50,297 bases of DNA from a bacterium. Lineage in GTDB: Bacteria > Armatimonadota > Zipacnadia > Zipacnadales > UBA11051. The stretch's first letter is position 1. Every line of letters starts with the position of its first letter. Below the pieces are notes generated by a model. The model was not told where the DNA came from. It ran no database searches and worked only from the letters and a program-made list of their open reading frames with translations. Location of the stretch: the NCBI GenBank assembly GCA_021372615.1, contig JAJFUB010000011.1, forward strand, positions 1 to 50,297, written 5' to 3'. The translations under genes and the position numbers were made by a program. Positions 6,779 through 49,362 of this stretch are shown piece after piece.

Positions 6779-9700
6779 TCACAGATGGTCAGAAATGACG
6801 GCACCGGCATCTCTATGCGCCGCAGCCTTCGTCCAGTACCGCTTCTCTGCACGCTTGATGATCAGCAGGCCCGAGCCAGGGTCGTAGACACGGATGTTCC
6901 TGCGAACGGCAAGATTAGCGTCAACCTGATGGTGCAGCGTCCGAGACAGCGACCGCAGTACGACGCTCCCCGGAACGTCCTTGTGTTGCACTACCCTCGC
7001 GTCTTGCTCAACCAGACTCGTCTCAACCAGTTGGATTACCTGTAGGGGGTCGCTGTCACCGCACCATATCGTGATGGCTGCCTGTCTGCCAGATGGCTCA
7101 AGATACGGGTTCAGACTGGCTGCGAGCACGGCGGCGTACGCGTCAAGATCCTGTGCGTTCGGTGGTTCTGGAGCAAAGGACGCTTTCTTGCTCTCACGGA
7201 AGAAGCTGATAGTGGAGGTGACTACCTCATCGACGAAATCAGATTCCCGCGCCGTTAGCCTGTACACCTCAGCAACTAGCCGCTGGAGCTCCTCGTGCGC
7301 CGGCAACGCGTCCGCAGTGTCGTGGCCATGGCGCAAGAGCGTCTCCAGTTCGCAGATTCGCCCGCGCTGTTGAGCCGTGAGGTCATGCCATTCCGGAACC
7401 GGCAGCGCCGCGATCTCGCTCGGTAGCACATCATCTCGCTCTACCCCCCAACGAGACGACGTCAGGAAGAGGAAATACTGCGCCACGTCCGAATTGAGAA
7501 GCACGGACAGGTACTGTCCCAGCTGCTCATCAGTTTCCCCCAGGGATAGCCCCCAATATCGCGGCGAGAACACCACGCCTGATGGCACGTAGGCCGCCGT
7601 TATTCTGTCTTCCTTGGGCGAACGCCCGACGAGCAACTGTGGTCCCAGGAAGAGGTGCGGCGTCTTCTTGTCACGCCAACGGTCGGCACGATCGGTCTCT
7701 TGGACTGCCGACAGCACCAGCGAACTACCATACGGGGGTATGTCTTCCTCGCGCAGCAGCGGTCTGCCCACGAAGCTCGGTGGGGGAGGAGCGCCCTGAT
7801 CGCGGCGCTTTGACAGTGGTTTCCTGTCGAGATTGAATATCCCGCAGCCTGCTCCTCGCTGCCAGCCACGGCCGTCCGCAAGCTGCTCCAATGTAGGCTG
7901 CTCGCGCAGATGCTGAAGCAAGTTCCAGTCTGCAGCGCTGCCCCAGAACGACGCTTTCCAGATGGAATGATCGTGTCTGATCAAGTCGAGCGGCAGGTTA
8001 ACCTTGTCGTCATCCAGTATGACCACCTGCTTGGTGGTATCCACCGCTCGAGACACCTTAGGAGCATCATATCTCACCGTCGCGTCTTCCGTTGGTGGCC
8101 CGTTCTCGCACAGAACTACTGCTGGCGGGGCAGTGACCCCTCTGAATATCTCAGCGTCCCGAAGGTGCATGAGATTCACGACGTGCAGGTTACTGCACTC
8201 GCTCAGTAGCCGCTCAACCGTCCTACGCCCCCGCGGCTGGAAGAGCATCAAAGCCGGCACCATCATGGCGATGCGACTGCCATCTCGGCCGAGCTGCTGC
8301 GCTCGCCATAGGAATGCGTGATAGGGCTGGTTGTTGTCTAGGGGGAGGCCTCTCTTGTTGCAGTACGCAGAGGCAGAGGCGCAGTGCTCCCTCGACTGCG
8401 TCCAGGGCGGATTGCCGACCACTAGGTCGAATTCACATGATGCAAACGGCCATCGCGCATTATACACGGCATCTTCATCGAAGGCGTCCATACCAGAAAA
8501 CAACGAAATCCCCTCAAGGTGCGGCAACCGTATATCCGCTGCGCATGGGACCTCACACGCATTCTCCAGCAAGGCGAGATAGAGACTGAACGCGGCGATA
8601 CGGCCGGCATCCAAGCTAATCTCAAGGCCAAACACCTGCCCTGTCAGGATACGACTGAGTTCGGCAAAGGTAGGCGCGACCCCAGTTCGCTCGCGCCGGC
8701 GGAAAGCTAGCCGCCTGAAGACCTCCACGAGGAACGCACCTGATCCACAGGCAGGGTCAAGAACGAGGGCGCTGTCATCCAACCCTCGCATGGCTTCTTC
8801 TACGATTGAGCGGACCAACAGGGGGGGTGTATAGTGGACCCCGGTCTTGTTCTGAACCGGTTGCTCTTGGCCTGTCGCCGTGTTCTGCCCTGCCGGTTCG
8901 TCCTCACGGGTGAACATCTCGTATAAGCTGCTAATCAGTTCCACCGGGATCGTGGCGAAGTCGTATGGCCACAGGCGTCGTTGGCCAGTGCCCATCTGCT
9001 CGCCCGACAGGAACCTCTCCAGTACTCCCCAGTGCTGCGTCTTGAGGGCCGCGGTCTCATGATCCTCGAGAGGAAACAGATCCCCATTGAAAGCTTCGGC
9101 CATCCACCTGAACAGAGCGATGGCAGAGGTCTGATCGGTGAAGATGCCCGCCAAGACGTCCTGCCCAAACCGCTCACGGAGGAAATCCGGGCTAAGTACA
9201 CCGCGGTCCGTCAGGTATGACAGGAAGATCGCCCGGCCGAGAAGCGCCTGGGCTGTCTGAAGCGTTAGCTGCTCACCGACGAGGAGGTTGCGCGCGTCTG
9301 CGATGTCTTTGAGCAACTGGCTGTCCACGCGCTCTCGCGCGGTGATCTTCATCCCCGGAGTCGTCTGCCAGAAACTCCCGGTATCGAAGCAGACTCTCCC
9401 ATAGGTGTCCCGCAGTGTCTCATCGGTCAGGCTCAGGATACTGAGAAGCGCTCCGCTGTGTTCCTGTTCGCGCTCGTCGCCCTCGAGCTTCGATGGGTGC
9501 GCGTACGAATTGTATAGGTACACTACGTCGCCACTGACGAGGCAAAGGACTGGAGCGTCACCGCGATTCCAGGCCAGATGGTGCCATGCGCGACCGGCTT
9601 CGGCATTGATCTCGTCAAGCCACTTGAAGTAGATCTGGGGCATGCCGGAGATCGCATAGGCGGCATCCGCACGGGCGCTGGACAGGAAGTCGCCGTAGCT

Positions 9701-9808
9701 CAAGGCCACCGACTCCGTCTGCACGGAGGAACCGTCGGCTAGGGCCAGGCCCTCCGCCCCTGCATAGCCCATGCGGTCGATTGCCTCCATCAGCCGTGGG
9801 TCAGCCAT
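6779..9808 (-). CDS. N6-adenine DNA methyltransferase, type IIG/Eco57I-like
   Basis: A 1009-residue protein with an adenine-methyltransferase core. DPACGSGAF at residues 351-359 binds S-adenosylmethionine (motif I) and NPPW at 466-469 is the catalytic motif IV. The N-terminal 320 residues include SYGDFLSSARADAAYAISG and a helical region; such regions in type IIG enzymes carry nuclease or helical connector domains, though I see no clear PD-ExK triad there. The C-terminal half (for example SPRYWGLSLGE and LLNSDVAQYFLFL) matches the target-recognition region of Eco57I/PglX-like enzymes. The downstream nuclease gene (6104-6778) begins at the next base after its stop. Expected role: modification arm of a restriction or phage-defence system. 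Lower GC than neighbours suggests horizontal acquisition. Confidence 0.85.
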   Translation of the reverse strand: MADPRLMEAIDRMGYAGAEGLALADGSSVQTESVALSYGDFLSSARADAAYAISGMPQIYFKWLDEINAEAGRAWHHLAWNRGDAPVLCLVSGDVVYLYNSYAHPSKLEGDEREQEHSGALLSILSLTDETLRDTYGRVCFDTGSFWQTTPGMKITARERVDSQLLKDIADARNLLVGEQLTLQTAQALLGRAIFLSYLTDRGVLSPDFLRERFGQDVLAGIFTDQTSAIALFRWMAEAFNGDLFPLEDHETAALKTQHWGVLERFLSGEQMGTGQRRLWPYDFATIPVELISSLYEMFTREDEPAGQNTATGQEQPVQNKTGVHYTPPLLVRSIVEEAMRGLDDSALVLDPACGSGAFLVEVFRRLAFRRRERTGVAPTFAELSRILTGQVFGLEISLDAGRIAAFSLYLALLENACEVPCAADIRLPHLEGISLFSGMDAFDEDAVYNARWPFASCEFDLVVGNPPWTQSREHCASASAYCNKRGLPLDNNQPYHAFLWRAQQLGRDGSRIAMMVPALMLFQPRGRRTVERLLSECSNLHVVNLMHLRDAEIFRGVTAPPAVVLCENGPPTEDATVRYDAPKVSRAVDTTKQVVILDDDKVNLPLDLIRHDHSIWKASFWGSAADWNLLQHLREQPTLEQLADGRGWQRGAGCGIFNLDRKPLSKRRDQGAPPPPSFVGRPLLREEDIPPYGSSLVLSAVQETDRADRWRDKKTPHLFLGPQLLVGRSPKEDRITAAYVPSGVVFSPRYWGLSLGETDEQLGQYLSVLLNSDVAQYFLFLTSSRWGVERDDVLPSEIAALPVPEWHDLTAQQRGRICELETLLRHGHDTADALPAHEELQRLVAEVYRLTARESDFVDEVVTSTISFFRESKKASFAPEPPNAQDLDAYAAVLAASLNPYLEPSGRQAAITIWCGDSDPLQVIQLVETSLVEQDARVVQHKDVPGSVVLRSLSRTLHHQVDANLAVRRNIRVYDPGSGLLIIKRAEKRYWTKAAAHRDAGAVISDHL

Positions 9809-9851
9809 GATGGTTGATCCTCTGGTATCGATGGGTAGTCACTGCGAGGCG

Positions 9852-9877
9852 CCGTCAGCCTGACCAGCGGCTGACGG
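9852..9877. repeat. Hairpin with shared TGACGGC word
   Basis: CCGTCAGCC and GGCTGACGG pair over 9 bp with an 8-base loop, upstream of the methyltransferase gene. The following GCTGACGGCCACG recurs at 20075-20087, and a related word follows the hairpin at 48464-48478. The element is therefore probably an interspersed repeat rather than a terminator. Confidence 0.5.
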
Positions 9878-9988
9878 CCACGAACGGTAAGGTTACAGCA
9901 AGCCAATCGTGGTGTCAACGCAGCGCGGGGGTGCCCTCCCCCTCGGAGCGACCCCCTCCTCCCCGCTGTCAGAGCCGCGGCCCCCCCG

Positions 9989-10017
9989 TTGCCCCCTCCT
10001 CCCCTCACTGGTATGAT
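9989..10017 (+). promoter_or_regulatory. Sigma70-type promoter for the DUF302 gene
   Basis: TTGCCC (9989-9994), a 17-base spacer and TATGAT (10012-10017) lie 20 bases before the ATG at 10038, and an AGGAGG site follows. It probably drives DUF302 and mscL together. Confidence 0.5.
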
Positions 10018-10037
10018 ACCGCCCACAGGAGGCGACT

Positions 10038-10421
10038 ATGCTCTACGAGAAGCAAGCTAGCGGTACTGCCGAAGACATCCTCGCGCGGCTGGCCGCCGCG
10101 GTGGCCGCGCACAAGTTCGGCGTCATCAGCCAACTCGACCTGCAGGCCAAGCTGGCTGAGAAGGGCGTGGACCTCGCGCCGGTCTGTTGGGTCGTGGAGG
10201 TGTGCAACCCGGTGCAGGCCCAGCGCGTGCTGGAGCAGGAGATCACGCTGGCGACGATGCTGCCCTGCCGCCTCTGTCTCTACGAGCGCGCGGGGGCGCT
10301 GTGGGTCGGCACGCTGCGGCCCAGCCAACTCATTGGCCTGATGGGCCAGCCGGCGCTGGCGCCGGTGGCGGCCGAAGTCGAAGCGACACTCATCGCAATC
10401 ATTGACCAGACATGCGCCTGA
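10038..10421 (+). CDS. DUF302 domain protein
   Basis: A 127-residue DUF302-family protein. [28 protein letters not shown] and later [29 protein letters not shown] match the family core. The biochemical role of DUF302 is unknown; members fold as small dimeric alpha/beta proteins. CAGGAGG lies 6 bases upstream of the ATG. Its downstream neighbour mscL begins 26 bases after the stop with an almost identical ribosome-binding leader (CACAGGAGGCGAC in both), suggesting a duplicated leader and a two-gene operon under the promoter at 9989-10017. Confidence 0.8.
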
Positions 10422-10447
10422 GCGGGCGCACCACAGGAGGCGACGGC

Positions 10448-10912
10448 ATGCTCAAGGAGTTCAAGGAGTTCGCCATCAAGGGCAACATGCTGGACATGGC
10501 CGTGGGCATCATCATCGGCGCGGCGTTCGGCAAGATCGTCACGTCGTTCGTCGAGGATGTCATCATGCCGCCCGTCGGGCTGCTGCTGGGCAAGGTGGAC
10601 TTCTCCGCGCTGTTCCTGAGCCTCAACGGGCAGAGCTACGCCTCGCTCGCCGCCGCCAAGCAAGCCGGCGCCCCCACACTCAACTACGGGGCATTCCTCA
10701 ACAACATCCTCAGCTTCATCATCGTCGCCTTCGCCGTGTTCCTGCTGGTCAAGGCCGTGAACCGGCTGCGGCGGCAGGGCGAGGCCGCCGCGGAGGAGGC
10801 CGAAGAGGCGACCGAGAAGACCTGTCCGTTCTGTCGGTCGCAGATCTCCATGGAGGCCACGCGCTGCCCGCAGTGCACCTCGATGCTGGAGGATGAGCCC
10901 GCTGCCCACTGA
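10448..10912 (+). CDS. mscL: Large-conductance mechanosensitive channel MscL
   Basis: A 154-residue inner-membrane channel that releases solutes on hypo-osmotic shock. The N-terminal amphipathic helix [20 protein letters not shown] leads into TM1 ([23 protein letters not shown]), a periplasmic loop and TM2 ([23 protein letters not shown]). The C-terminus has an unusual ending for MscL, a glutamate-rich helix then a zinc-ribbon-like pair [18 protein letters not shown]. The ATG at 10448 is chosen because AGGAGGCGACGGC precedes it; the frame is open from 10412. It follows the DUF302 gene as a second cistron. Confidence 0.93.
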
Positions 10913-10960
10913 CACGCCGGACCCGGGGGCAGCCCTAGCATCCGGGGCGGGTTCAGCGAT

Positions 10961-10988
10961 TTGCCTGGCCGGGCGATCGTGCTATACT
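10961..10988 (+). promoter_or_regulatory. Sigma70-type promoter for the first thymidylate-kinase-like gene
   Basis: TTGCCT (10961-10966), a 16-base spacer and TATACT (10983-10988). The same -10 hexamer TATACT is seen before dnaA and dciA. Transcription would begin about 35 bases before the ATG at 11031. Confidence 0.5.
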
Positions 10989-11030
10989 CGTAGGCCCTGA
11001 CCCATCATCTTGCACCGCGAGTTGAGGACC

Positions 11031-23900: not shown

Positions 23901-25265
23901 ATGTCTGAGATGGTCATGACCGGCGAAGAGATCTGGTCGCACGTGTTGCCGATGCTGAAGGACCGCATCGGCCAGGCCACCTTCGATGCCGTGCTGCGCA
24001 GTGCTGCCCCGCTGGAGTACGACGGAGCGGCCTTCACCCTCTCTGTGCCCAACGACTTCATCCGCCGCATGCTCGAGGAGCGCCACCGGCCGCTGATCAC
24101 GGCCTGCTTGCAGGAAGTGCTCAAGGAGCCGGTGGACTTGCGCATGCGCGTGGTCGAGACGACGCTGGAGACGATGGAGCGCCCCGTGGTCTACGCGCCC
24201 CCGCCCCCTCTGCCCGTGCAGGAAGTGTTCGATACCGGACCGCTCAACCCACGCTATACCTTCGATAGCTTCGTGGTGGCAGACTGCAACCGCTTCGCGC
24301 ATGCGGCGGCCCTGCAGATCTGCCGCAACCCCGGGCGGTGCTATAATCCCCTGTTTATCCACAGCAAGGCGGGTCTGGGCAAGACCCACCTGATGCAGGC
24401 CATCGGGCACGGCATCCGCGAGCAGCACCCCAACATGCAGGTGGTGTACGTCTCGGCCGAGGACTTCGTCAATCAGCTCATCTCGGCCATCCGAGACAAC
24501 CGCACGGCCGAGTTCCGCCGGCGGTATCGCTATGTGGATGTGTGGCTGGTGGATGACATCCAGTTCATCGCCGCCATCGAGGGGCCGGCCTCGGAAGAGG
24601 AGTTTTTCCACACTTTCAACACGCTGTGCATGAACGACCGGCAGGTCGTCATCGCCTCCGACGCGCCGCCGCGCCAACTGCAGATCATGAACGACCGGCT
24701 CCGCAGCCGGCTGGAGATGGGCATCCTGGCGGACCTGCGCTGCCCGGATGTCGAGACCCGCGTCGCGATCCTGGAGAAGAAGGCGGCCGCCGAGCAGGTC
24801 TACATCCCGCGGGACATGCTGGAATACCTCGCCAAGAAGATCGAGTCCAACATCCGGGTGCTCGAGGGCGCGCTGCTGAAGCTCTGTGCGTACTCCTCGC
24901 TGCACGGGGGCGAGCTGACGCTGTCGATGGTGGACGAGATGGTGGCCGACTACTCCTCCTCGGCCTCGGAGCGGCGCATCAGCCTCAACGAGATCGCGTC
25001 CTACGTGAGCGAGCGGTTCGAGTGCCCCGTAAGCGACCTCACGGGCCCCAAGCGCAGCAAGGACATCGCCTGGCCGCGGCAGGTCGCCGTCTATCTGGCC
25101 CGGGAGTTGACCGACCACTCCCTTAGCGACATCGGCAACTTCTTCGGCGGGCGCGACCATTCCACGATCCTGTACGCCTACAACAAGGTCAGCGACATGG
25201 TCGTCGAGGATGAGAAGGTCCTGTGGGAGATGAACGACCTGAAGGCCGCCTTGCGCGACCACTAG
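23901..25265 (+). CDS. dnaA: Chromosomal replication initiator DnaA
   Basis: A 454-residue DnaA of normal length. Domain I (residues 1-90) interacts with partners and a proline-rich linker follows (PPPPLPVQE, about 100-108). The AAA+ domain has Walker A SKAGLGKT (155-162), Walker B VWLVDDIQFI and the sensor/arginine-finger region MNDRLRSRLEMG. Domain IV ends with GGRDHSTILYAYNKV, the DnaA-box-binding signature. It binds ATP and DnaA boxes to open the origin. The ATG at 23901 has GGGAGG seven bases upstream; the frame is open from 23850. dnaN and recF follow in the same direction, and the origin-unwinding element appears to lie just downstream. Confidence 0.97.
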   Translation: MSEMVMTGEEIWSHVLPMLKDRIGQATFDAVLRSAAPLEYDGAAFTLSVPNDFIRRMLEERHRPLITACLQEVLKEPVDLRMRVVETTLETMERPVVYAPPPPLPVQEVFDTGPLNPRYTFDSFVVADCNRFAHAAALQICRNPGRCYNPLFIHSKAGLGKTHLMQAIGHGIREQHPNMQVVYVSAEDFVNQLISAIRDNRTAEFRRRYRYVDVWLVDDIQFIAAIEGPASEEEFFHTFNTLCMNDRQVVIASDAPPRQLQIMNDRLRSRLEMGILADLRCPDVETRVAILEKKAAAEQVYIPRDMLEYLAKKIESNIRVLEGALLKLCAYSSLHGGELTLSMVDEMVADYSSSASERRISLNEIASYVSERFECPVSDLTGPKRSKDIAWPRQVAVYLARELTDHSLSDIGNFFGGRDHSTILYAYNKVSDMVVEDEKVLWEMNDLKAALRDH

Positions 25266-42478: not shown

Positions 42479-43483
42479 TCAGTTCTGGGCAGATGAGGGG
42501 GGAATCATCGGGCTGACCGTGCGGAGGATCTGGTCGGCCGAGGTATTCGTGGGGTCATCCACAACGGCAGCCTGCGCCTCGCTCTGGGCTACTTGCAGCC
42601 AGGCCATAGCATTCTCGAGTGCGTCAGCCTGCATCGCGGCGGCGGCGCGGATATACGCCGTCAGGGCGAGACTGGCGTGCGCAAACGCCCGCAGGCGAGC
42701 CGGGGTGCGGATGCGCTGGTCCATGAGTTGCTTCCCGGGGGGCAGCCTCCGGCCGATCTCAATGGTCTTGCGGAACCACTCGTCGGCGAGGTCCAGTTCG
42801 CGCGTCTGACCGTTCTCTGCACGCGTCACCAGGTCCTGGATTGACTGCATGAGGGCCGGGTCGCCAATGCTCAGGTAGGTCGTACCCATCGAGAAGGCGG
42901 CCAGACCCATATCCGGGTCGAGTTCTAGCGCCTTCTGGTAGTGCTGGCGCGCGTCATCGAAGCTCGCATGGAGCTGGGCCTGCAGACCGAGCCGATATTC
43001 GCGCTTGGCGCGCTGCGCCGGTTGCATGTAGATGGCGATGGGTATCGCCGCGGCAAGCGCCAGCAGCAACACCGACCCGATCAGACCACCGACGAAGCAA
43101 CCTCGGTGAGAACGGGCGGGTGGAAGCTCCTCTTCGAGCGGCTCAGGAGCGTGTGAGGGCATACCGGGAGCGGTGGACGGCAATGGAGCTGTCCCGAGGC
43201 GCGCGCAGCGCGGGCAATGCGTCTCCAAGGGACGCAATGCATAGCCGCATCGCGGGCAGACGCCCGAGGAGAGCATGGGCAGATCTCCCGCGGAGTTGTC
43301 GTCCGATGGTGGTGCGTTCTGCGGCTTGTCCGCTTTGGCAGGCGGGATGCCTGCAGATGGAGGAGGGGACAGCGGGCCACTTGGCTCGAACTCAATCTCC
43401 AGCACACTGTCGGAGGACGCCGGCCGCTCTCCGCCGTCGTCATCAAAGCTGATGTCCAGCACATCGTCGTGGTCGTCTCTCAT
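42479..43483 (-). CDS. Membrane-anchored zinc-ribbon/TPR protein of the ubiquitin-like operon
   Basis: A 334-residue protein. The acidic N-terminus holds two similar motifs, DDVLDISFDDD (residues 5-15) and DSVLEIEFEPS (25-35). A zinc ribbon follows (CPRCGYALRPLETHCPRC, about 76-93). One transmembrane helix (FVGGLIGSVLLLALAAAIPIAI, about 130-151) separates it from TPR-like helices (REYRLGLQAQLHASFDDARQ, HYQKALELDPDMGLAAFSMG). By the one-helix topology the zinc ribbon is probably cytoplasmic and the TPR part external. It is the last gene of the operon, 50 bases after the second JAMM gene, and may be a scaffold or substrate-recruiting factor; an E3-like role is only a guess. Start ATG at 43483 has a weak ribosome-binding site, and a possible internal promoter lies at 43507-43535. 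Confidence 0.7.
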   Translation of the reverse strand: MRDDHDDVLDISFDDDGGERPASSDSVLEIEFEPSGPLSPPPSAGIPPAKADKPQNAPPSDDNSAGDLPMLSSGVCPRCGYALRPLETHCPRCARLGTAPLPSTAPGMPSHAPEPLEEELPPARSHRGCFVGGLIGSVLLLALAAAIPIAIYMQPAQRAKREYRLGLQAQLHASFDDARQHYQKALELDPDMGLAAFSMGTTYLSIGDPALMQSIQDLVTRAENGQTRELDLADEWFRKTIEIGRRLPPGKQLMDQRIRTPARLRAFAHASLALTAYIRAAAAMQADALENAMAWLQVAQSEAQAAVVDDPTNTSADQILRTVSPMIPPSSAQN

Positions 43484-43506
43484 CGCAGGACCATAGGAGG
43501 CATCTT

Positions 43507-43535
43507 TGTATATGTTTAACGTTTTATCTTGTACT
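43507..43535 (-). promoter_or_regulatory. Possible internal promoter before the zinc-ribbon/TPR gene
   Basis: On the minus strand a conspicuously AT-rich stretch contains AGTACA, 17 bases and TATACA (43507-43512), ending 23 bases before the start codon at 43483. The -35 match is weak (3 of 6). Confidence 0.35.
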
Positions 43536-44211
43536 AACGACGGAACCAGGACAGCAGACCCTTCCTTGGATCGCGCCGTTCAGGTGCGTACTTCATGTCG
43601 GCAAGGAGCACAGTCAGTTCCTCCGCCCGCTCCGCATCATCGTATAGCAGGCAACCCGGCAGGCGCTCGAGCGTGCCCTCGCGCCAGGCGAAGACTGCGA
43701 GCAGTTGCTGGACAGGATCCAATACAAGCGCAACATGACGCGGGTGGGAGAAGAAGTTCTCGTGGATGAACCGGTCGTGGGCGGACAGGAAGGGCCCAAA
43801 CCCGGGGTGGGTGTGGTACCACCCCACGATGCAGAGGCCGTCGTCGCGCTTGTCGAGGGCGGCATGGATGCGGTCCCAGGCATCGTGGGTGAAGGTCACA
43901 TGGGTCAGGCTGGACTCGTTGCTGTCGGCGATGACGATGTCCGCCACCCGCGTCATGGGTCCGCGGGGCGTCTGGACGAAGTCGCCCAGCAGAACGCCGG
44001 CCACCTCACGGTCGGTACAGTCACTGCCGTGCCCGATCATGTCATAGAGCGTATCGGCCGCAAAGGCGGCGAGCGGCGAGGGCGGGGACTCCCCCAGCAG
44101 CGCCACGCGGACGCTCTCATCATGCCAGGGATCCCAGTCGCGCAACGTCTCCTGGTCGCTGGAGAGCTCCAGCATCAGATCGTCGTCGCCGGGAGGATCC
44201 GTGGCGTTCAC
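43534..44211 (-). CDS. JAMM/MPN metalloprotease (JAB domain), soluble
   Basis: A 225-residue JAB/MPN protein. The complete JAMM site is present: Glu69 in REVAGVLLGD, His133 and His135 in YHTHPGFGPFLSAHD, Ser143 and Asp146. Such zinc proteases cleave isopeptide bonds in ubiquitin-like systems, or process the modifier precursor. No membrane segment is seen. The N-terminus carries DDDLMLELSSDQ, similar to motifs in other products of this operon. It starts with GTG overlapping the TGA of the previous JAMM gene, so the two are translationally coupled. A paralogue with a membrane anchor is encoded just upstream. Confidence 0.88.
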   Translation of the reverse strand: MNATDPPGDDDLMLELSSDQETLRDWDPWHDESVRVALLGESPPSPLAAFAADTLYDMIGHGSDCTDREVAGVLLGDFVQTPRGPMTRVADIVIADSNESSLTHVTFTHDAWDRIHAALDKRDDGLCIVGWYHTHPGFGPFLSAHDRFIHENFFSHPRHVALVLDPVQQLLAVFAWREGTLERLPGCLLYDDAERAEELTVLLADMKYAPERRDPRKGLLSWFRR

Positions 44212-45146
44212 GGTGACGGCGCTCCCGGGGTAGTTGGTGGGGGCTCTGACGCCGCCGGCGGGGGAGAAGGCCCGGACGGCCCCGACTGTGGAGCCGCCTC
44301 CGGAGCAGGCGAAGGAGAGGAGGCCTCATGCCCCTGCTCGGCCTGTGACAGGTCGAGGACGCGGTCGCGGATGGCGGTCAACTCATGCGACATCCCGCTG
44401 ACCTGCTCGTTGAGGCCAGCAACCTGTCCCTTGAGCACCCGCACGTCGTTGTAGGTGGCGAGGGACACGCCGATCAGAAGCGCCAGCAGGAGACCGATGA
44501 GGCCCAGGGCCCAGGTGATGCCGCGGGTCGGCACGTCTGGCGCCGGCGCAGGGATGATGATCGGTGCCGGCTGGGGCGCGGGCGCAGCCGAGGCGCTCTG
44601 CGGCGCGCCCGCTGCGGCCCACTGGACGGCCACGGTATGCACGTCAGGCTCCTGCGACAGCTCCTGGCCGTGCCAGGTGAAGCAGCCCCAGGACTTGGCG
44701 AGTGGATCGGCCACGACCGCCACCTGCCAGGGGGTGTTGAAGAAGTTCTGGTGGATGAACAGGTCATGCCCCGAGAGGAACAGCCCGAACCCGGGATGAC
44801 TGTGGTACCAGCCTACGATCTTCAGGTCGGGGTACTCGTTGTCCTTGACGGCGTTGATCTCATTCCAGGTCTCGTGGGTGAAGGTGACACTACCGCGAGA
44901 GTGCGCCATGGCGTGACCACGGATAGCGGCCTCGACCAGCACGACTGGCCGCGGGCCATCTATCACCGAGCCCACGAGGATGCCGCCGATCTCATGCTCC
45001 GGCTCCTCGGCGGCGTGGCTGTTCACATCAGCCAGGGCTGTCTCGAGCACGAAGACGGCCGGTCCGGTGCTAGACTGCTGCACATCTTTGTCAGAGTCTT
45101 GAGCCTCAAGTTGTACATCCGTATCCAGGACGTCGGGATCGTCCAT
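44208..45146 (-). CDS. JAMM/MPN metalloprotease with membrane anchor
   Basis: A 312-residue protein. The JAMM site is complete: Glu52 in HEIGGILVGS, His115 and His117 in YHSHPGFGLFLSGHD, Ser125 and Asp128. A proline/alanine-rich linker is followed by a transmembrane helix (TWALGLIGLLLALLIGVSLA, about 208-228). A short coiled coil comes next (VRVLKGQVAGLNEQVSGMSH and on) and then a Pro-rich tail. The N-terminus has DPDVLDTDVQLEAQDSD, an acidic/hydrophobic motif shared with neighbours. It probably removes the ubiquitin-like modifier at the membrane surface. Its ATG overlaps the TGA of the E1-like gene (TGATG). Confidence 0.88.
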   Translation of the reverse strand: MDDPDVLDTDVQLEAQDSDKDVQQSSTGPAVFVLETALADVNSHAAEEPEHEIGGILVGSVIDGPRPVVLVEAAIRGHAMAHSRGSVTFTHETWNEINAVKDNEYPDLKIVGWYHSHPGFGLFLSGHDLFIHQNFFNTPWQVAVVADPLAKSWGCFTWHGQELSQEPDVHTVAVQWAAAGAPQSASAAPAPQPAPIIIPAPAPDVPTRGITWALGLIGLLLALLIGVSLATYNDVRVLKGQVAGLNEQVSGMSHELTAIRDRVLDLSQAEQGHEASSPSPAPEAAPQSGPSGPSPPPAASEPPPTTPGAPSP

Positions 45147-46339
45147 CAGGCAATGCTCCCCAGCGCCAGCTCACGGTCGGCGCGCAGCAAGTAGTACTTC
45201 ATGGTCATTCCCTCGCGGCCGGTGATGATGTCGTAAGGTGGCAAGCCCAGCTCAGCAAGGGTGCGGTCGAGGTAGTCCTCACTGCCGTCCAGCTTGTGCG
45301 TCAGTAGCGGGTCGCAGACTTCGCCGCAGTCCGGGCACGTCGCCTCGGCAATGGTGACCTTGCCCAACGAGCGGAAGAAGTCGCGGGTATGGTCACACTT
45401 GGGGCAGTGCAGCCGGGTGCACAGCTCGCGCTCGAACTCGACCTGGGCGTGCGGCCCCACCTCGGCACGGACGAGGTCGAGCATCTGACGGCCAGTCACG
45501 TCGCCGACCCCGTAGTCAGTGTCGACGACATCGTACATCTGTTCGTGTGCGGGGCAGTCGTCGCGGCGCTGATAGGTGATGAGGTATGAATCGTGGGTCA
45601 GACCGTTGAAGAAGAAACCGCGCCCGGCGAGGTCAGGCAGGTTGCGGTCGGCGTGGAGGAGCTTGATGCCCTCTTGCACCTGGATGCCGCCGATGATCGA
45701 GGCAATCGTGGGAGTCGTGGGCACCTTGCCCTGCAGCACATCATCGCGCGAGAGCAGAGCGCAGGAGCGCCGCTGGCTGAGCAGCTTGTAGTCCAACTCG
45801 GACATGGTGCACTCGTAGCACGGAGCCTCCTCGCCGGGGACGAACACCCGGGCGACCCCCTGCATCAGCTCAATCGCCCCGTCAATCCACGGGCGTCCGA
45901 GCTTCCAGCAGTTCGCGTTGATGGCGACGCGCGCTTCGCGGTTGTCCAGCGCGCCGAAGACCAGGTCCATCTCGCGGAAGGCGCCGAGGCCGAGGTCGTA
46001 GTTGATATCGCCCACCAGCGCTTGGGCGCGGACATCGGGGTTGACTTCCATGACGCGCTCGGCGGCGACCTCGGCCTTGTGGCGGCCGCGGTCACCGGCG
46101 CGGAAGAGGATGGCGCGGGTGAGGTTCGTGTCCTCGATGGTGTCGAGATCGGCGATGAGGATACGGCCGACGCCGAGGAGGGCGAGGTTCTTAAGGATCT
46201 CGTTGCCGAGGGCTCCGGCCCCGACGACCAACACACGCGCCTGGCGCAGGCGCTCCTGATCCCACCACGGGATCAGCCGCAGCCGATCATAGCGGTCTTC
46301 AGCCAGCTCGACCTGCAGTTCGTCCTGTTGCTCGGGCAC
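45146..46339 (-). CDS. E1-like ubiquitin-activating (ThiF/UBA) enzyme
   Basis: A 397-residue E1/ThiF-fold adenylyltransferase. VVGAGALGNEILKNL (residues 38-52) binds ATP, ADLDTIEDTNLTR (63-75) has the metal and arginine residues for adenylation, and Cys193 in RSCALLSRDD occupies the position of the thioester or persulfide Cys. PTTPTIASIIGGIQVQEGIKLL is the usual C-terminal helix. Beyond it are two extra CxxC pairs, CPKC (312-315) and CPDC (335-338), plus CYEC at 174-177. The ending LAELGLPPYDIITGREG resembles E1-like C-terminal domains. It should adenylate the Gly terminus of the modifier encoded just upstream and pass it to the E2-like protein. GTG at 46339 has GAGGAG seven bases upstream. 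The N-terminus carries DELQVELAED. Confidence 0.9.
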   Translation of the reverse strand: MPEQQDELQVELAEDRYDRLRLIPWWDQERLRQARVLVVGAGALGNEILKNLALLGVGRILIADLDTIEDTNLTRAILFRAGDRGRHKAEVAAERVMEVNPDVRAQALVGDINYDLGLGAFREMDLVFGALDNREARVAINANCWKLGRPWIDGAIELMQGVARVFVPGEEAPCYECTMSELDYKLLSQRRSCALLSRDDVLQGKVPTTPTIASIIGGIQVQEGIKLLHADRNLPDLAGRGFFFNGLTHDSYLITYQRRDDCPAHEQMYDVVDTDYGVGDVTGRQMLDLVRAEVGPHAQVEFERELCTRLHCPKCDHTRDFFRSLGKVTIAEATCPDCGEVCDPLLTHKLDGSEDYLDRTLAELGLPPYDIITGREGMTMKYYLLRADRELALGSIA

Positions 46340-46377
46340 AGGCGGTCTCCTCGGGGAGGGATGGCAGCGGCGGGCTG

Positions 46378-46647
46378 TCAGCCGGCAGTGATCTCCGGCT
46401 GCAGGCGGAGGACGTCGCCATCCTTCACTTCGGCTTCGGCCAGCGTCTGCTCGTCGGTGAGCTGCTTGCCGGAGGCCTTGTGGTGGAACTTGTAGCTGAG
46501 CGGCTGACCGTCGGGGCCCGTCACGGGCAGGGCCATCATCTGCACGAGCTTGGCGATGATCCGGCGCACCGGCGCATCGTCAGGCAGCGAGGCCTTCTGC
46601 TCCTTGCTGCCGGTGGTGTCCATGATGACCACATTCACCTTACCCAT
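46378..46647 (-). CDS. Ubiquitin-like modifier protein
   Basis: An 89-residue beta-grasp protein. VNVVIMDTTGSKEQKASLPD gives the first beta hairpin, VRRIIAKLVQMMALP the helix, SYKFHHKASGKQLTDEQTLA the middle strands, and EVKDGDVLRLQPEITAG the last strand with a single Gly at the C-terminus (Ala88-Gly89). The fold resembles YukD/EsaB and ubiquitin. A free terminal Gly suits direct E1 activation without trimming. The ATG at 46647 has GGGAGG six bases upstream; the frame continues to 46698. Genes for the E1 and for the protease and E2 flank it on both sides, which supports the role of transferable modifier. Confidence 0.85.
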   Translation of the reverse strand: MGKVNVVIMDTTGSKEQKASLPDDAPVRRIIAKLVQMMALPVTGPDGQPLSYKFHHKASGKQLTDEQTLAEAEVKDGDVLRLQPEITAG

Positions 46648-46711
46648 GTCTGCCTCCCTGTGTAGACCTGTATAGGCTTTCTCGCTAATCTGTGACAAAT
46701 GTGTACCGTAC

Positions 46712-47746
46712 TCAGCGCAACTCTATGTCAATGTCGCTAAGGTCATCCTGCGGTCTCGGCTGCGGCTGGGGGACGGGCGCGGGCGCTGCAGAAGGCGCAG
46801 ACGGGACCGGAGCGGCGCCCCAACCGGGAGCCGAGTATGGCGGCGGTGCCATGTAGGCGACCGGGGCGACGACCCCACGTGCTACCGACTTAGCGACCAC
46901 AAGCGAGGTGATCAGCGCAACCAGAAAGGCTACCACGGCTGCCGCCACCAACCACATCCATGGCTGCAGCGTGAACGAGGGTGCGGGTGGCGAGGCAGCC
47001 GGGGGAGCCCCGGGCGCGCCGGCCTCGGGTACCGCCGCTGCTGGCGGAGGCGTCGCGCCCTCGGCAGGTGCTTCGGCCGCCGCCGGCGCATCGAGTGTCG
47101 AATAAGTTAGCTTTGCCTCATCTAGAAAGGCCATCGCATCATCACTAGGGATGGCGAAGCCCATGTTCTCGGCCTTCTTGGCGACCAGCGTCGCCACCCC
47201 GACGACCTGCCCCTGATCGTTGATGATCGGGCCCCCGGAATTGCCCTGGTTGAGCGCCGCGTCTATCTGGACGAACTTCTGGCCGTCAATGTCGCGGCTG
47301 GCCGAGGAGACGATGCCCTTGGTCAGCGTGTCGGACAGGCCGAAGGGCGCGCCGATGGCCGCGACTTCCGTTCCCTGCTTGAGCTTGGCGGAGGAGGCGA
47401 AGATCACGTTTGGCAGATGCGGGCGGTCCACGCGCAGCACGACCAGGTCGCGCGTCTCGGAGGCCTTCACCAGCTCGGCCGGCAGCTCGTCCCCGTTGGC
47501 GAGCTTGACCGTGGCCTTGGTGGCCTTATCCAGCACGTGCTTGTTGGTGAGCACATAGCCCTCGCCGTTGACGATGAAGCCGGTGCCCATGCGCTTCTCC
47601 AGCATCACGGTGACGACAGCATCGCGGATCTTGTCGGCGGCCTGCGCGAAGTCCGCGTGGGCCAGGGGGCAGGCGCACAGCAGCGTCAACAGCACCACCA
47701 CCGGCAGCAGCGGGCGCGCGCCTGGGGACCATCGGCGTCCGGACAT
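46712..47746 (-). CDS. Membrane-anchored HtrA/trypsin-like serine protease
   Basis: A 344-residue protein. Residues 1-31 are a signal peptide. The trypsin-like domain has the triad His70 (LTNKHVL), Asp100 (TRDLVVL) and Ser170 (LNQGNSGGP), as in HtrA/DegP, but no PDZ domain follows. A Pro/Ala-rich linker leads to a transmembrane helix (LVAAAVVAFLVALITSLVVA, about 251-270). A second Pro-rich segment comes next and the C-terminus is DDLSDIDIELR, which would be cytoplasmic. The protease therefore faces outside while its tail could contact the cytoplasmic modifier machinery. The ATG at 47746 has GAGGG upstream. It lies 27 bases after the E2-like gene and 64 before the modifier gene in the same operon. 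Confidence 0.85.
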   Translation of the reverse strand: MSGRRWSPGARPLLPVVVLLTLLCACPLAHADFAQAADKIRDAVVTVMLEKRMGTGFIVNGEGYVLTNKHVLDKATKATVKLANGDELPAELVKASETRDLVVLRVDRPHLPNVIFASSAKLKQGTEVAAIGAPFGLSDTLTKGIVSSASRDIDGQKFVQIDAALNQGNSGGPIINDQGQVVGVATLVAKKAENMGFAIPSDDAMAFLDEAKLTYSTLDAPAAAEAPAEGATPPPAAAVPEAGAPGAPPAASPPAPSFTLQPWMWLVAAAVVAFLVALITSLVVAKSVARGVVAPVAYMAPPPYSAPGWGAAPVPSAPSAAPAPVPQPQPRPQDDLSDIDIELR

Positions 47747-47773
47747 GAGCCATCCCTCGCTTCCTGGAGCACG

Positions 47774-48274
47774 TCATGCCACATATACGGCCAACGGGCG
47801 GTCATCCACCGGCAGGGCCGAGGCATGGGCTTCGGCCCACGCCGCCGCCTCCGGGTTGAGCACGTCGTCGGGGTTGTACAACCGGAACTGGATCATCTCA
47901 CCGACGCGCAACACGAGGTCGGCCAGCGACTCCGAGGGCGTCCAGCCACCGATGCACACGCCGCCCCCGTCGCTGGCGGACAGGATATTCGGGTGAAAGA
48001 TCAGGGTGCGCCAGATGATCTGCGGCGGCCGCCGCGGGTAGTCGCGGTGCAGGTAGAACTCGCCCTGGTGGCGATCAGCCAGACCGGGCTCGGCCGCCCC
48101 CGGCGCCCAGACCAACCCGCGACAGGTGTAGGTGACAAGATAGCGGTCGGGCGGGTTGCCTTCGGCGTCACAGGTGATGAAGTCGGAGGCGCGAACGAGT
48201 TCGCGCATGGCCGCCATGTCGGCATGCAGCCGCCGCAGCCGCGGACTGGAGGAGGCTGGTTCGTGAGCGATCAT
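47774..48274 (-). CDS. E2-like ubiquitin-conjugating (UBC-fold) enzyme
   Basis: A 166-residue protein with the E2 fold. SPRLRRLHADMAAMRELV is helix 1, PPDRYLVTYTCRGLVW and HQGEFYLHRDYPRRPPQI give the sheet, and FHPNILSASDGGGVCIGGW contains the HPN motif (94-96) and the candidate catalytic Cys107, 11 residues later. LADLVLRVGEMI and LNPEAAAWA match E2 helices at the C-terminal side. It would accept the modifier from the E1-like protein as a thioester and attach it to a target. It is the first gene of the operon. I use the ATG at 48274, although TTG at 48289 is in frame. The 315 bases upstream contain only repeats. Confidence 0.87.
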   Translation of the reverse strand: MIAHEPASSSPRLRRLHADMAAMRELVRASDFITCDAEGNPPDRYLVTYTCRGLVWAPGAAEPGLADRHQGEFYLHRDYPRRPPQIIWRTLIFHPNILSASDGGGVCIGGWTPSESLADLVLRVGEMIQFRLYNPDDVLNPEAAAWAEAHASALPVDDRPLAVYVA

Positions 48275-48604: not shown

Positions 48605-49222
48605 CTAGGGCTTCGGGTGGGTGGCATCGCCGTTGGGCCAGAAGTGCCAGGCGGCGATGGCGACCTTGCCCGTCGCGCTGTCATAGCCGCCGTCGGGCTT
48701 GAGCCACTTGGCGTGTCCGTCAAAGAAGGTGCAGTTGATGCCGTCATTGTGCGGGCACGGCACCAACCCGGGCGAGTAGAAGACGCCCTGACCGTGACCA
48801 TTGGTGCCGCCCGAGCAGTTCAGGTAGATGTTATAGTTGTCCGCCATCATGAGTTGCTCAGACGGGGATGAGATGCTGCCGAGGCTCAGGCCAGTGCCGT
48901 GGGAGGTGCTGAAGCCGTAGCCCGGGTAGGTCGTGCTACGGCTGGGGCAGATGAAGACCTGGGTGTTCTTGCAGTAGGGGGCAATGAACTGATACCAGTA
49001 CATCCCGGCTTCAGACCCCTGGTTGCCGTATATGACATTGGCCTCGTCGAAGTCCTGCGCGTACGACAGCGCCGCGAGAGCAAGCTGCTTGACGTTCGAC
49101 AGGCAACTGCTCTGCCGCGCTTTCTCGCGTGCCTTGGCAAAGACCGGGAAGAGGATCGCGGCGAGGATCGCGATGATGGCGATGACGACCAGTAGCTCAA
49201 TGAGTGTGAAACCCTTGCGCAT
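48605..49222 (-). CDS. Prepilin-like protein (type II secretion/DUF1559-like)
   Basis: A 205-residue pseudopilin-like protein. The N-terminus [20 protein letters not shown] carries the prepilin peptidase site (Gly4-Phe5) and the conserved Glu, followed by [33 protein letters not shown] and a C-terminal beta-rich domain with [13 protein letters not shown]. This arrangement is typical of the large prepilin families of Armatimonadota. It would be cleaved and inserted in the inner membrane. AAGGAGG lies upstream of the ATG at 49222. No pilus or secretion genes are adjacent. It diverges from leuS. Confidence 0.88.
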
Positions 49223-49362
49223 GTCAGTACCCTCCTTGCAGTTTGCCGGCTGAATGTGCGCGCACTTCGTTGTGCGCAGTTCGCACACCTGCAGACGCAT
49301 CGCGTTCTCTGCAGATTGCACCAGTTTCTGTTGAGTCCCGGAAAGGCGTGCCAACCGTGCCC

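Follow-up and report, generated by a model that had tools for sequence, protein, structure and literature searches.

Based on the gene content of a 50,297-nucleotide stretch of a genome from the Armatimonadota (contig JAJFUB010000011.1; the whole stretch is hereafter called the window) and on comparisons to related loci, we propose that a seven-gene operon in the window, together with a second locus on contig C171 of the same genome, encodes a reversible, membrane-associated ubiquitin-like conjugation system. The predicted parts are a ubiquitin-like modifier (Ubl), an activating enzyme (E1), two conjugating enzymes (E2-a in the operon, E2-b on C171), putative RING ligases, JAMM proteases and a transmembrane HtrA-like protease. 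Sequence comparison combined with structural models makes the conjugation mechanism probable; a role in envelope quality control is put forward tentatively, at somewhat less than even weight.

The cycle would begin with adenylation of the terminal glycine of Ubl, Gly89, by the E1, which would then carry the modifier on Cys193. A UFD-like C-terminal domain of the E1 would present Ubl to an E2, either to Cys107 of E2-a or to E2-b, and the RING membrane proteins encoded beside E2-b would act as ligases, bringing the charged E2 to targets in or near the membrane. Both JAMM proteases would remove Ubl again and, in relatives, also mature its tail. A short motif present in HtrA, E2-b, E1, JAB, RING, FHA and TPR proteins may let them bind one and the same partner, with Ubl as the likeliest candidate, and HtrA, with its protease outside and its motif-bearing tail inside, would couple tagging to proteolysis in the envelope. 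In this scheme we infer the enzymatic activities, the order of transfer, the partner of the motif, the topology and the envelope quality-control role; observed are the genes present, the folds, the invariance of the catalytic residues and of the Ubl C-terminus, the enrichment of the motif and the inheritance by clade.

Ubl is a predicted beta-grasp modifier with a conserved C-terminal glycine and processing site. It matches the Pfam families YukD (1.6e-14) and ubiquitin (7e-4), as well as EccD, and within Armatimonadota, two more distant operons being left out, its counterparts are 75-93% identical to the window's Ubl, compared to 52-73% for the E1. The sequence PEITAG is invariant in 78 full-length Ubl cores from several phyla, and conservation ends sharply at its glycine, where the window's Ubl ends as well. 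In 53 of 79 Ubls the chain continues past this residue; these tails are dissimilar and range in length from 1 to 318 residues. An invariant PEITAG followed by variable tails resembles the pattern of ubiquitin precursors and suggests a processed modifier; in Caldiarchaeum, a JAMM protease trims the tail of pro-ubiquitin (PMC5654768). The PEITAG ends with their tails, the intact E1, E2 and JAMM sites and the RING proteins together predict covalent use of Ubl. In some relatives further domains follow the ITAG end, namely a zinc ribbon with a transmembrane (TM) helix (L084, 7375-7965) or a lipoprotein-like domain (L101, 6424-7932; L107, 6705-7928), and these fusions are possible modifier precursors or tethered modifiers. 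A more distant relative carries a Ubl-E2 fusion (L043, 4289-5212; YukD 1.6e-4, UQ_con 2.5e-8) with E1 and JAB genes as neighbours.

The E1 matches Pfam ThiF at 5e-53. Its Cys193 is invariant in 15 homologues and again in a set of 28, and C174, C177, C262 and H265 are likely zinc ligands. In the AlphaFold model (predicted local distance difference test score, pLDDT, 90), residues 12-266 match MoeB (Z 29.2) and ThiF (Z 27.8), and residues 17-388 match the SUMO E1 UBA2 (Z 27.2, root-mean-square deviation (rmsd) 3.7, 302 residues), with UBA7, UBA6 and UBA1 aligning from residue 11/12 to 387/388 at rmsd 5.3-7.2. A profile of 28 E1s likewise reaches UBA7/UBA1 at 1e-42, UBA3 at 1e-35 and UBA2 at 1e-33, and ThiF/MoeB at 1e-26. 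The C-terminal domain embeds a CxxC...CxxC pattern (312/315/335/338), and the model gives a strong indication, rather than proof since the alignment ranges define the first and last residue only, that this domain is UFD-like with a zinc ribbon embedded at C312, C315, C335 and C338. E2-a matches Pfam UQ_con at 2.6e-7, with HPN94-96 and Cys107 invariant in all 20 aligned homologues, and a profile search matched Ubc13/UBE2K at 1e-11. A structure comparison of this protein had been named in the original prediction as a check; the AlphaFold model (pLDDT 92) adopts the UBC fold, with UBE2S as best match (Z 13.8, rmsd 3.0, 131 residues) and many further E2s within about one Z unit.

Removal of the modifier would fall to JAB1 and JAB2, which match Pfam JAB at 3.5e-9 and 3.2e-11, respectively; the JAMM residues E52, H115, H117, S125 and D128 are invariant among 16 aligned homologues, and in relatives (L040, L077) a LysM domain follows the TM helix of JAB1. 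HtrA matches Pfam Trypsin_2 at 9.8e-33 and retains the triad His70/Asp100/Ser170, as assigned by motif. An N-terminal signal or TM segment (residues 13-31) is followed by the protease domain, a TM helix (266-284) and a positively flanked tail, so that the protease is predicted to lie outside and the tail inside; no PDZ domain was matched in Pfam, the TM helix and tail being found in place of a C-terminal PDZ. Planctomycetes encode RING-TM-TM-trypsin fusions (L132, 12995-14386; L127, 13348-14697; Prok-RING_1 and Trypsin_2), which tie the protease to the ligase. The TPR protein matches TPR_1 (3.9e-5) and DZR (0.036) and is 44.5% identical to its counterpart in the sibling genome; its zinc-ribbon/TPR assignment is the weakest of the seven since both matches fall under the curated cut-offs. 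The TM helices predicted in HtrA, JAB1, RING and FHA proteins argue for a membrane-anchored system. The parts named in the original prediction are thus recovered: an E2-like enzyme with HPN and Cys107, a membrane serine protease with intact triad and two predicted TM helices, a modifier ending in glycine (YukD-type, beta-grasp by profile), an E1-like enzyme with Cys193, two JAMM proteases with a conserved Glu and HxH...SxxD metal site, a zinc-ribbon/TPR membrane protein, albeit by weak matches, and anchoring in the membrane, here through HtrA, JAB1 and the TPR protein. A gene matching PF00227 (proteasome/HslV-like) was reported at G000:C85:172477-172992; a proteasome link was rejected, as the translation of the reported range matched no family.

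The usual order in relatives is HtrA-Ubl-E1-JAB-JAB-E2-RING-JAB, with an FHA membrane protein added in some. In the genome of the window, the Prok-RING_1 genes are just two (2.8e-9 and 3.5e-10), and both lie on contig C171 beside E2-b (L033, genes at 8911-9462, 9581-10387 and 10414-11022), where they provide putative ligases as E3 partners. RING and FHA proteins carry predicted TM helices. The sibling genome G001 (L034, L035) is split likewise, a different contig carrying its second E2, RING and FHA genes. The operon had been described as complete, which does not hold because the RING and FHA genes of relatives are absent from it, the RING genes and the second E2 being found on C171; nor do the HtrA-like protease and the two JAMM genes distinguish it as first thought, for these are usual parts of the system across several phyla. 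In a tree of 76 E2s, one clade (100/99) unites E2-b, the planctomycete E2s and E2-FHA fusions of Clostridia, and the E2s encoded upstream of HtrA fall nearly all outside it, with L098 as an exception inside. The fusions (L077, 9195-11075, and other Clostridia loci; about 570-650 residues) join an E2 to a multi-TM region and an FHA domain; in them, E2-b is merged with the FHA membrane protein into a single chain. Two Lachnospiraceae loci encode, upstream of the operon, proteins with an N-terminal Prok-RING_1 and TPR-like parts (L080, 4295-6751, 818 residues; L083, 4608-6818, 736 residues).

The components also share an acidic/hydrophobic motif, [ILVFM][DE][ILV][DENQST][ILVFM], scored in the last 14 residues. 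It was found there in 36 of 37 HtrA proteins and 14 of 23 Armatimonadota E2s, compared to 1 of 434 other proteins of the same loci; shuffling of the tails gives an expectation of 2.9% for HtrA and 1.9% for E2. The motif was first spotted by eye in Armatimonadota; in a mainly Clostridia set independent of that observation, 24 of 25 HtrA tails carry it. Copies with acidic flanks occur in E1 (9/15, mostly N-terminal), FHA (4/5), TPR (3/3), RING (7/19) and JAB (9/39) proteins, and in 8 of 199 others. Enrichment in E1, E2, JAB, RING, FHA and TPR proteins ranges from 3e-4 to 1e-14 (Fisher's test), p-values that serve as a guide only because homologous rows are not independent; what counts is that the motif recurs in unrelated proteins of a single operon. 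Ubl never carries the motif. In sequence it resembles a SUMO-interacting motif (SIM) and, by analogy, it may bind Ubl; the shared motif thereby offers a specific idea of how the components could recognise one another. It is possible, although we lean against the statement in full, that this is a constitutive, non-defence, membrane-anchored ubiquitin system whose non-homologous components are wired by one SIM-like motif binding the modifier, with transmembrane HtrA as a dedicated downstream arm; if true, gut Clostridia, planctomycetes and Armatimonadota would widely possess a constitutive motif-wired system.

The original prediction had the seven genes as co-directional and closely spaced or overlapping, and all seven open reading frames are indeed found (Table 1); in order from E2-a to the TPR protein, the genes are spaced by +27, +64, +38, -1, -4 and +50 bases. 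The location next to the chromosomal origin agrees with a dnaA gene at 23934-25250 of the same contig, about 17-23 kb away, and that outside a defence island with the flanks, which are dnaA, rsmG, parA and parB (rsmG and the par genes by sequence inspection). The rsmG-parA-parB neighbourhood is present here and in the sibling genus (L034), but differs in more distant relatives, as in family f3 of the phylum, where the operon is flanked by argH, pyrK and pyrD. Hence origin proximity was dropped as a functional clue beyond the sibling genus. A co-directional pseudopilin-like gene (window 48605-49354) lies upstream of the operon.

Table 1. Features of the operon in window coordinates, with the evidence for each assignment.
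Feature	Position	Strand	Evidence
E2-a, UBC-fold ubiquitin-conjugating enzyme, 166 residues	47774-48274	-	UQ_con, HPN94-96, Cys107, AlphaFold
HtrA-like trypsin-fold protease	46712-47746	-	Trypsin_2, hydropathy, positive-inside pattern, GNSGG and TNKHV motifs
HtrA C-terminal tail DLSDIDIELR, SIM-like acidic/hydrophobic motif	46715-46744	-	Motif counts, shuffling
YukD-type Ubl, 89 residues, ending ...LRLQPEITAG	46378-46647	-	YukD and ubiquitin profiles
PEITAG C-terminus of Ubl, Gly89 last residue	46381-46398	-	Invariance in homologues
E1, ThiF-type adenylation domain and C-terminal domain	45146-46339	-	ThiF, invariant residues, AlphaFold
JAB1, JAMM protease, TM 213-231, coiled/proline-rich tail	44208-45146	-	JAB, invariant residues, TM
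JAB2, soluble JAMM protease, 225 residues	43534-44211	-	JAB, invariant residues, no TM predicted
Zinc-ribbon (CxxC...CxxC), TM 133-151, TPR protein	42479-43483	-	Weak TPR_1/DZR, TM, sibling homologue
Shared motif copy 1, LDISF within HDDVLDISFDDDG, N-terminal tail of TPR protein	43445-43459	-	Motif scan
Shared motif copy 2, LEIEF within SDSVLEIEFEPSG, same N-terminal tail of TPR protein	43388-43402	-	Motif scan

When species genomes were searched with the E1 alignment, at least 468 relatives were detected. The best 80, at 48-73% identity, come from Armatimonadota, Clostridia (Lachnospiraceae, Oscillospiraceae and Clostridiaceae), Planctomycetota, Kiritimatiellota and Lentisphaerota, with one from Chloroflexota and one record titled Synergistales bacterium (L089), a Clostridia-like copy that reflects either transfer or a misassigned record. 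Sufficiently long loci mostly contain Ubl, E2 or E2-FHA, JAB and RING genes, and HtrA in many. Within the window's phylum, Ubl is present in 40 of 291 genomes and is arranged by clade: 6/7 genomes of family f1, 2/3 of f2, 4/4 of f6, most of f3, one marginal case in f5 (E 8e-4) and 0/2 of f4. Two genomes lacking Ubl, G005 and G012, are fragmented, and E2 was found in both. This clade-wise inheritance and the housekeeping flanks argue, though not conclusively, against a defence function.

Several observations weigh against the proposed system. Ubl ends in one glycine, not two, and Bacillus subtilis YukD, of the same Pfam family, is reported to be unconjugated (PMC1779556). Taken singly in NCBIfam, the E1 scores best to ThiF (136 bits; Ube1 81 bits), so that its closeness to eukaryotic E1s depends on the method. 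The strict motif is not matched by E2-a, E1 or the JABs of the window, and was not found in planctomycetes, where the protease is fused to RING; the two TM helices predicted in this fusion would leave protease and RING facing one side of the membrane together, contrary to an external protease. Furthermore, this genome yielded no full-length FHA relative, and the literature searched no experiment on a YukD-like Ubl/E1/E2/RING system.

Alternatively, the operon may serve anti-phage defence of the Bil, CBASS or Bub sort, with Ubl placed on phage proteins or an immune effector, as bacterial E1/E2/JAB systems of known biology mostly do (PMC10097602, PMC13373217, PMC12687455). In PADLOC, the E1 is hit by E1-E2 profiles (1.7e-15) and HtrA by RT-Protease_XI (3.6e-21); these matches reflect shared domains and were rejected as defence calls. 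For the Ubl, E2, TPR and RING proteins PADLOC gave no match, BilA and BilB were not matched, and the Bil models match only E1 and JAB, weakly (BilD 22 bits, BilC 12.9 bits). The operon has no CD-NTase or effector gene, and its clade-following presence, its dnaA/rsmG/parAB or argH/pyrK/pyrD surroundings and the high identity of Ubl across an order make defence improbable. A non-covalent assembly factor of type VII or other secretion, in the manner of YukD/EsaB, with the E1- and E2-like genes serving another end, would accord with the YukD and EccD matches, the unconjugated B. subtilis protein and the FHA/YscD-like domains of relatives. In Clostridium weizhouense (L113, 14195-17167), phage-baseplate/VgrG-like and DUF4280 genes follow the operon, as of an injection apparatus, and this too would fit secretion. 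However, no WXG100 protein was found in the window's genome, which makes a type VII role unlikely, no operon gene is a secretion ATPase, and the features that predict covalent use speak against it; we consider this explanation very unlikely.

The good scores of the E1 adenylation domain to ThiF and MoeB would also suit a sulfur-carrier pathway of the ThiS, MoaD or Urm1 type, in which the E1 makes a Ubl thiocarboxylate. Such a pathway is hardly credible given two E2s bearing a catalytic cysteine, a UFD-like E1 domain, RING proteins and several JAMMs; moreover, Pfam detected no rhodanese domain in the E1, and the operon has no cofactor genes. A further possibility concerns the role alone and competes with envelope quality control, not with the conjugation chemistry: the same reactions may serve signalling, with FHA recognising targets or partners that are phosphorylated, and with membrane components that sense the state of the wall (LysM) or envelope. 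FHA membrane proteins in many operons, fused to E2 in Clostridia, LysM-TM-JAB proteins and a TPR region predicted outside the membrane are compatible with it, but this genome keeps the rest of the system without an FHA protein, and the window operon has no kinase gene. We view signalling as possible, yet short of a favoured role. Membrane-associated conjugation remains our preferred reading of the chemistry.

In conclusion, the operon very probably belongs to the YukD-like Ubl/E1(UFD)/E2/RING/JAB systems reportedly predicted in 2011. In that year Burroughs, Iyer and Aravind reportedly described prokaryotic RING fingers and UFD-bearing E1s and proposed that YukD-like Ubls are conjugated. Those systems reportedly share the YukD-type Ubl, UFD-like E1, HPN-type E2, Prok-RING_1 and JAB; here the system differs in being split over two loci and in having two E2 classes. 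Our analysis adds a tail motif common to several components, the precursor pattern around PEITAG, the fusions of LysM with JAB and of RING with protease, and the distribution. The 2011 study (doi 10.1039/c1mb05061c) is cited in PMC11354881 and PMC12687455, and bacterial Ubl/E1/E2/JAB operons had been described in a 2006 survey (Iyer et al., PMC1779556). Groups 6a-6e of that survey share these gene sets, but as described are without RING, HtrA or FHA partners, and in group 6d the classical His is missing from the E2 (PMC1779556); the window's E2 has HPN. Bil/Bub systems likewise combine Ubl, E1, E2 and a peptidase in one operon and have been tied to defence against phage or to DNA-damage control (cited in PMC12687455 and PMC13373217). 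Type II CBASS shares the E1, E2 and JAB chemistry (Cap2/Cap3), but uses an E1-E2 fusion, Cap2, on a cGAS-like enzyme (PMC10097602), in contrast to the separate genes and absence of a cyclase in the operon here. HtrA/DegP proteases share the trypsin fold and His-Asp-Ser triad, but their C-terminal PDZ is not matched in the window's protein.

Carriers suited to a direct search for targets include Clostridium weizhouense, Massiliimalia massiliensis and Anoxynatronum buryatiense, and if it is the cell's own proteins that are tagged, ubiquitin-like housekeeping control would exist in common, partly culturable bacteria. The cascade of Caldiarchaeum subterraneum shares Ub, an E1 with C-terminal UBL domain, E2, a small RING and JAMM/Rpn11 trimming and deconjugation; unlike the window system, it is archaeal, has a di-Gly terminus and was reconstituted in vitro, and HtrA, FHA and membrane-anchored RING are not described in the accessible part of that report (PMC5654768). 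Bacterial Ubl systems of known biology serve mostly phage defence; that of the window, in contrast, is inherited by clade, lies among housekeeping genes and has a very strongly conserved modifier, and it is like the eukaryotic cascade in having E1, E2, RING and JAMM as separate parts, with a UFD-like domain in the E1.

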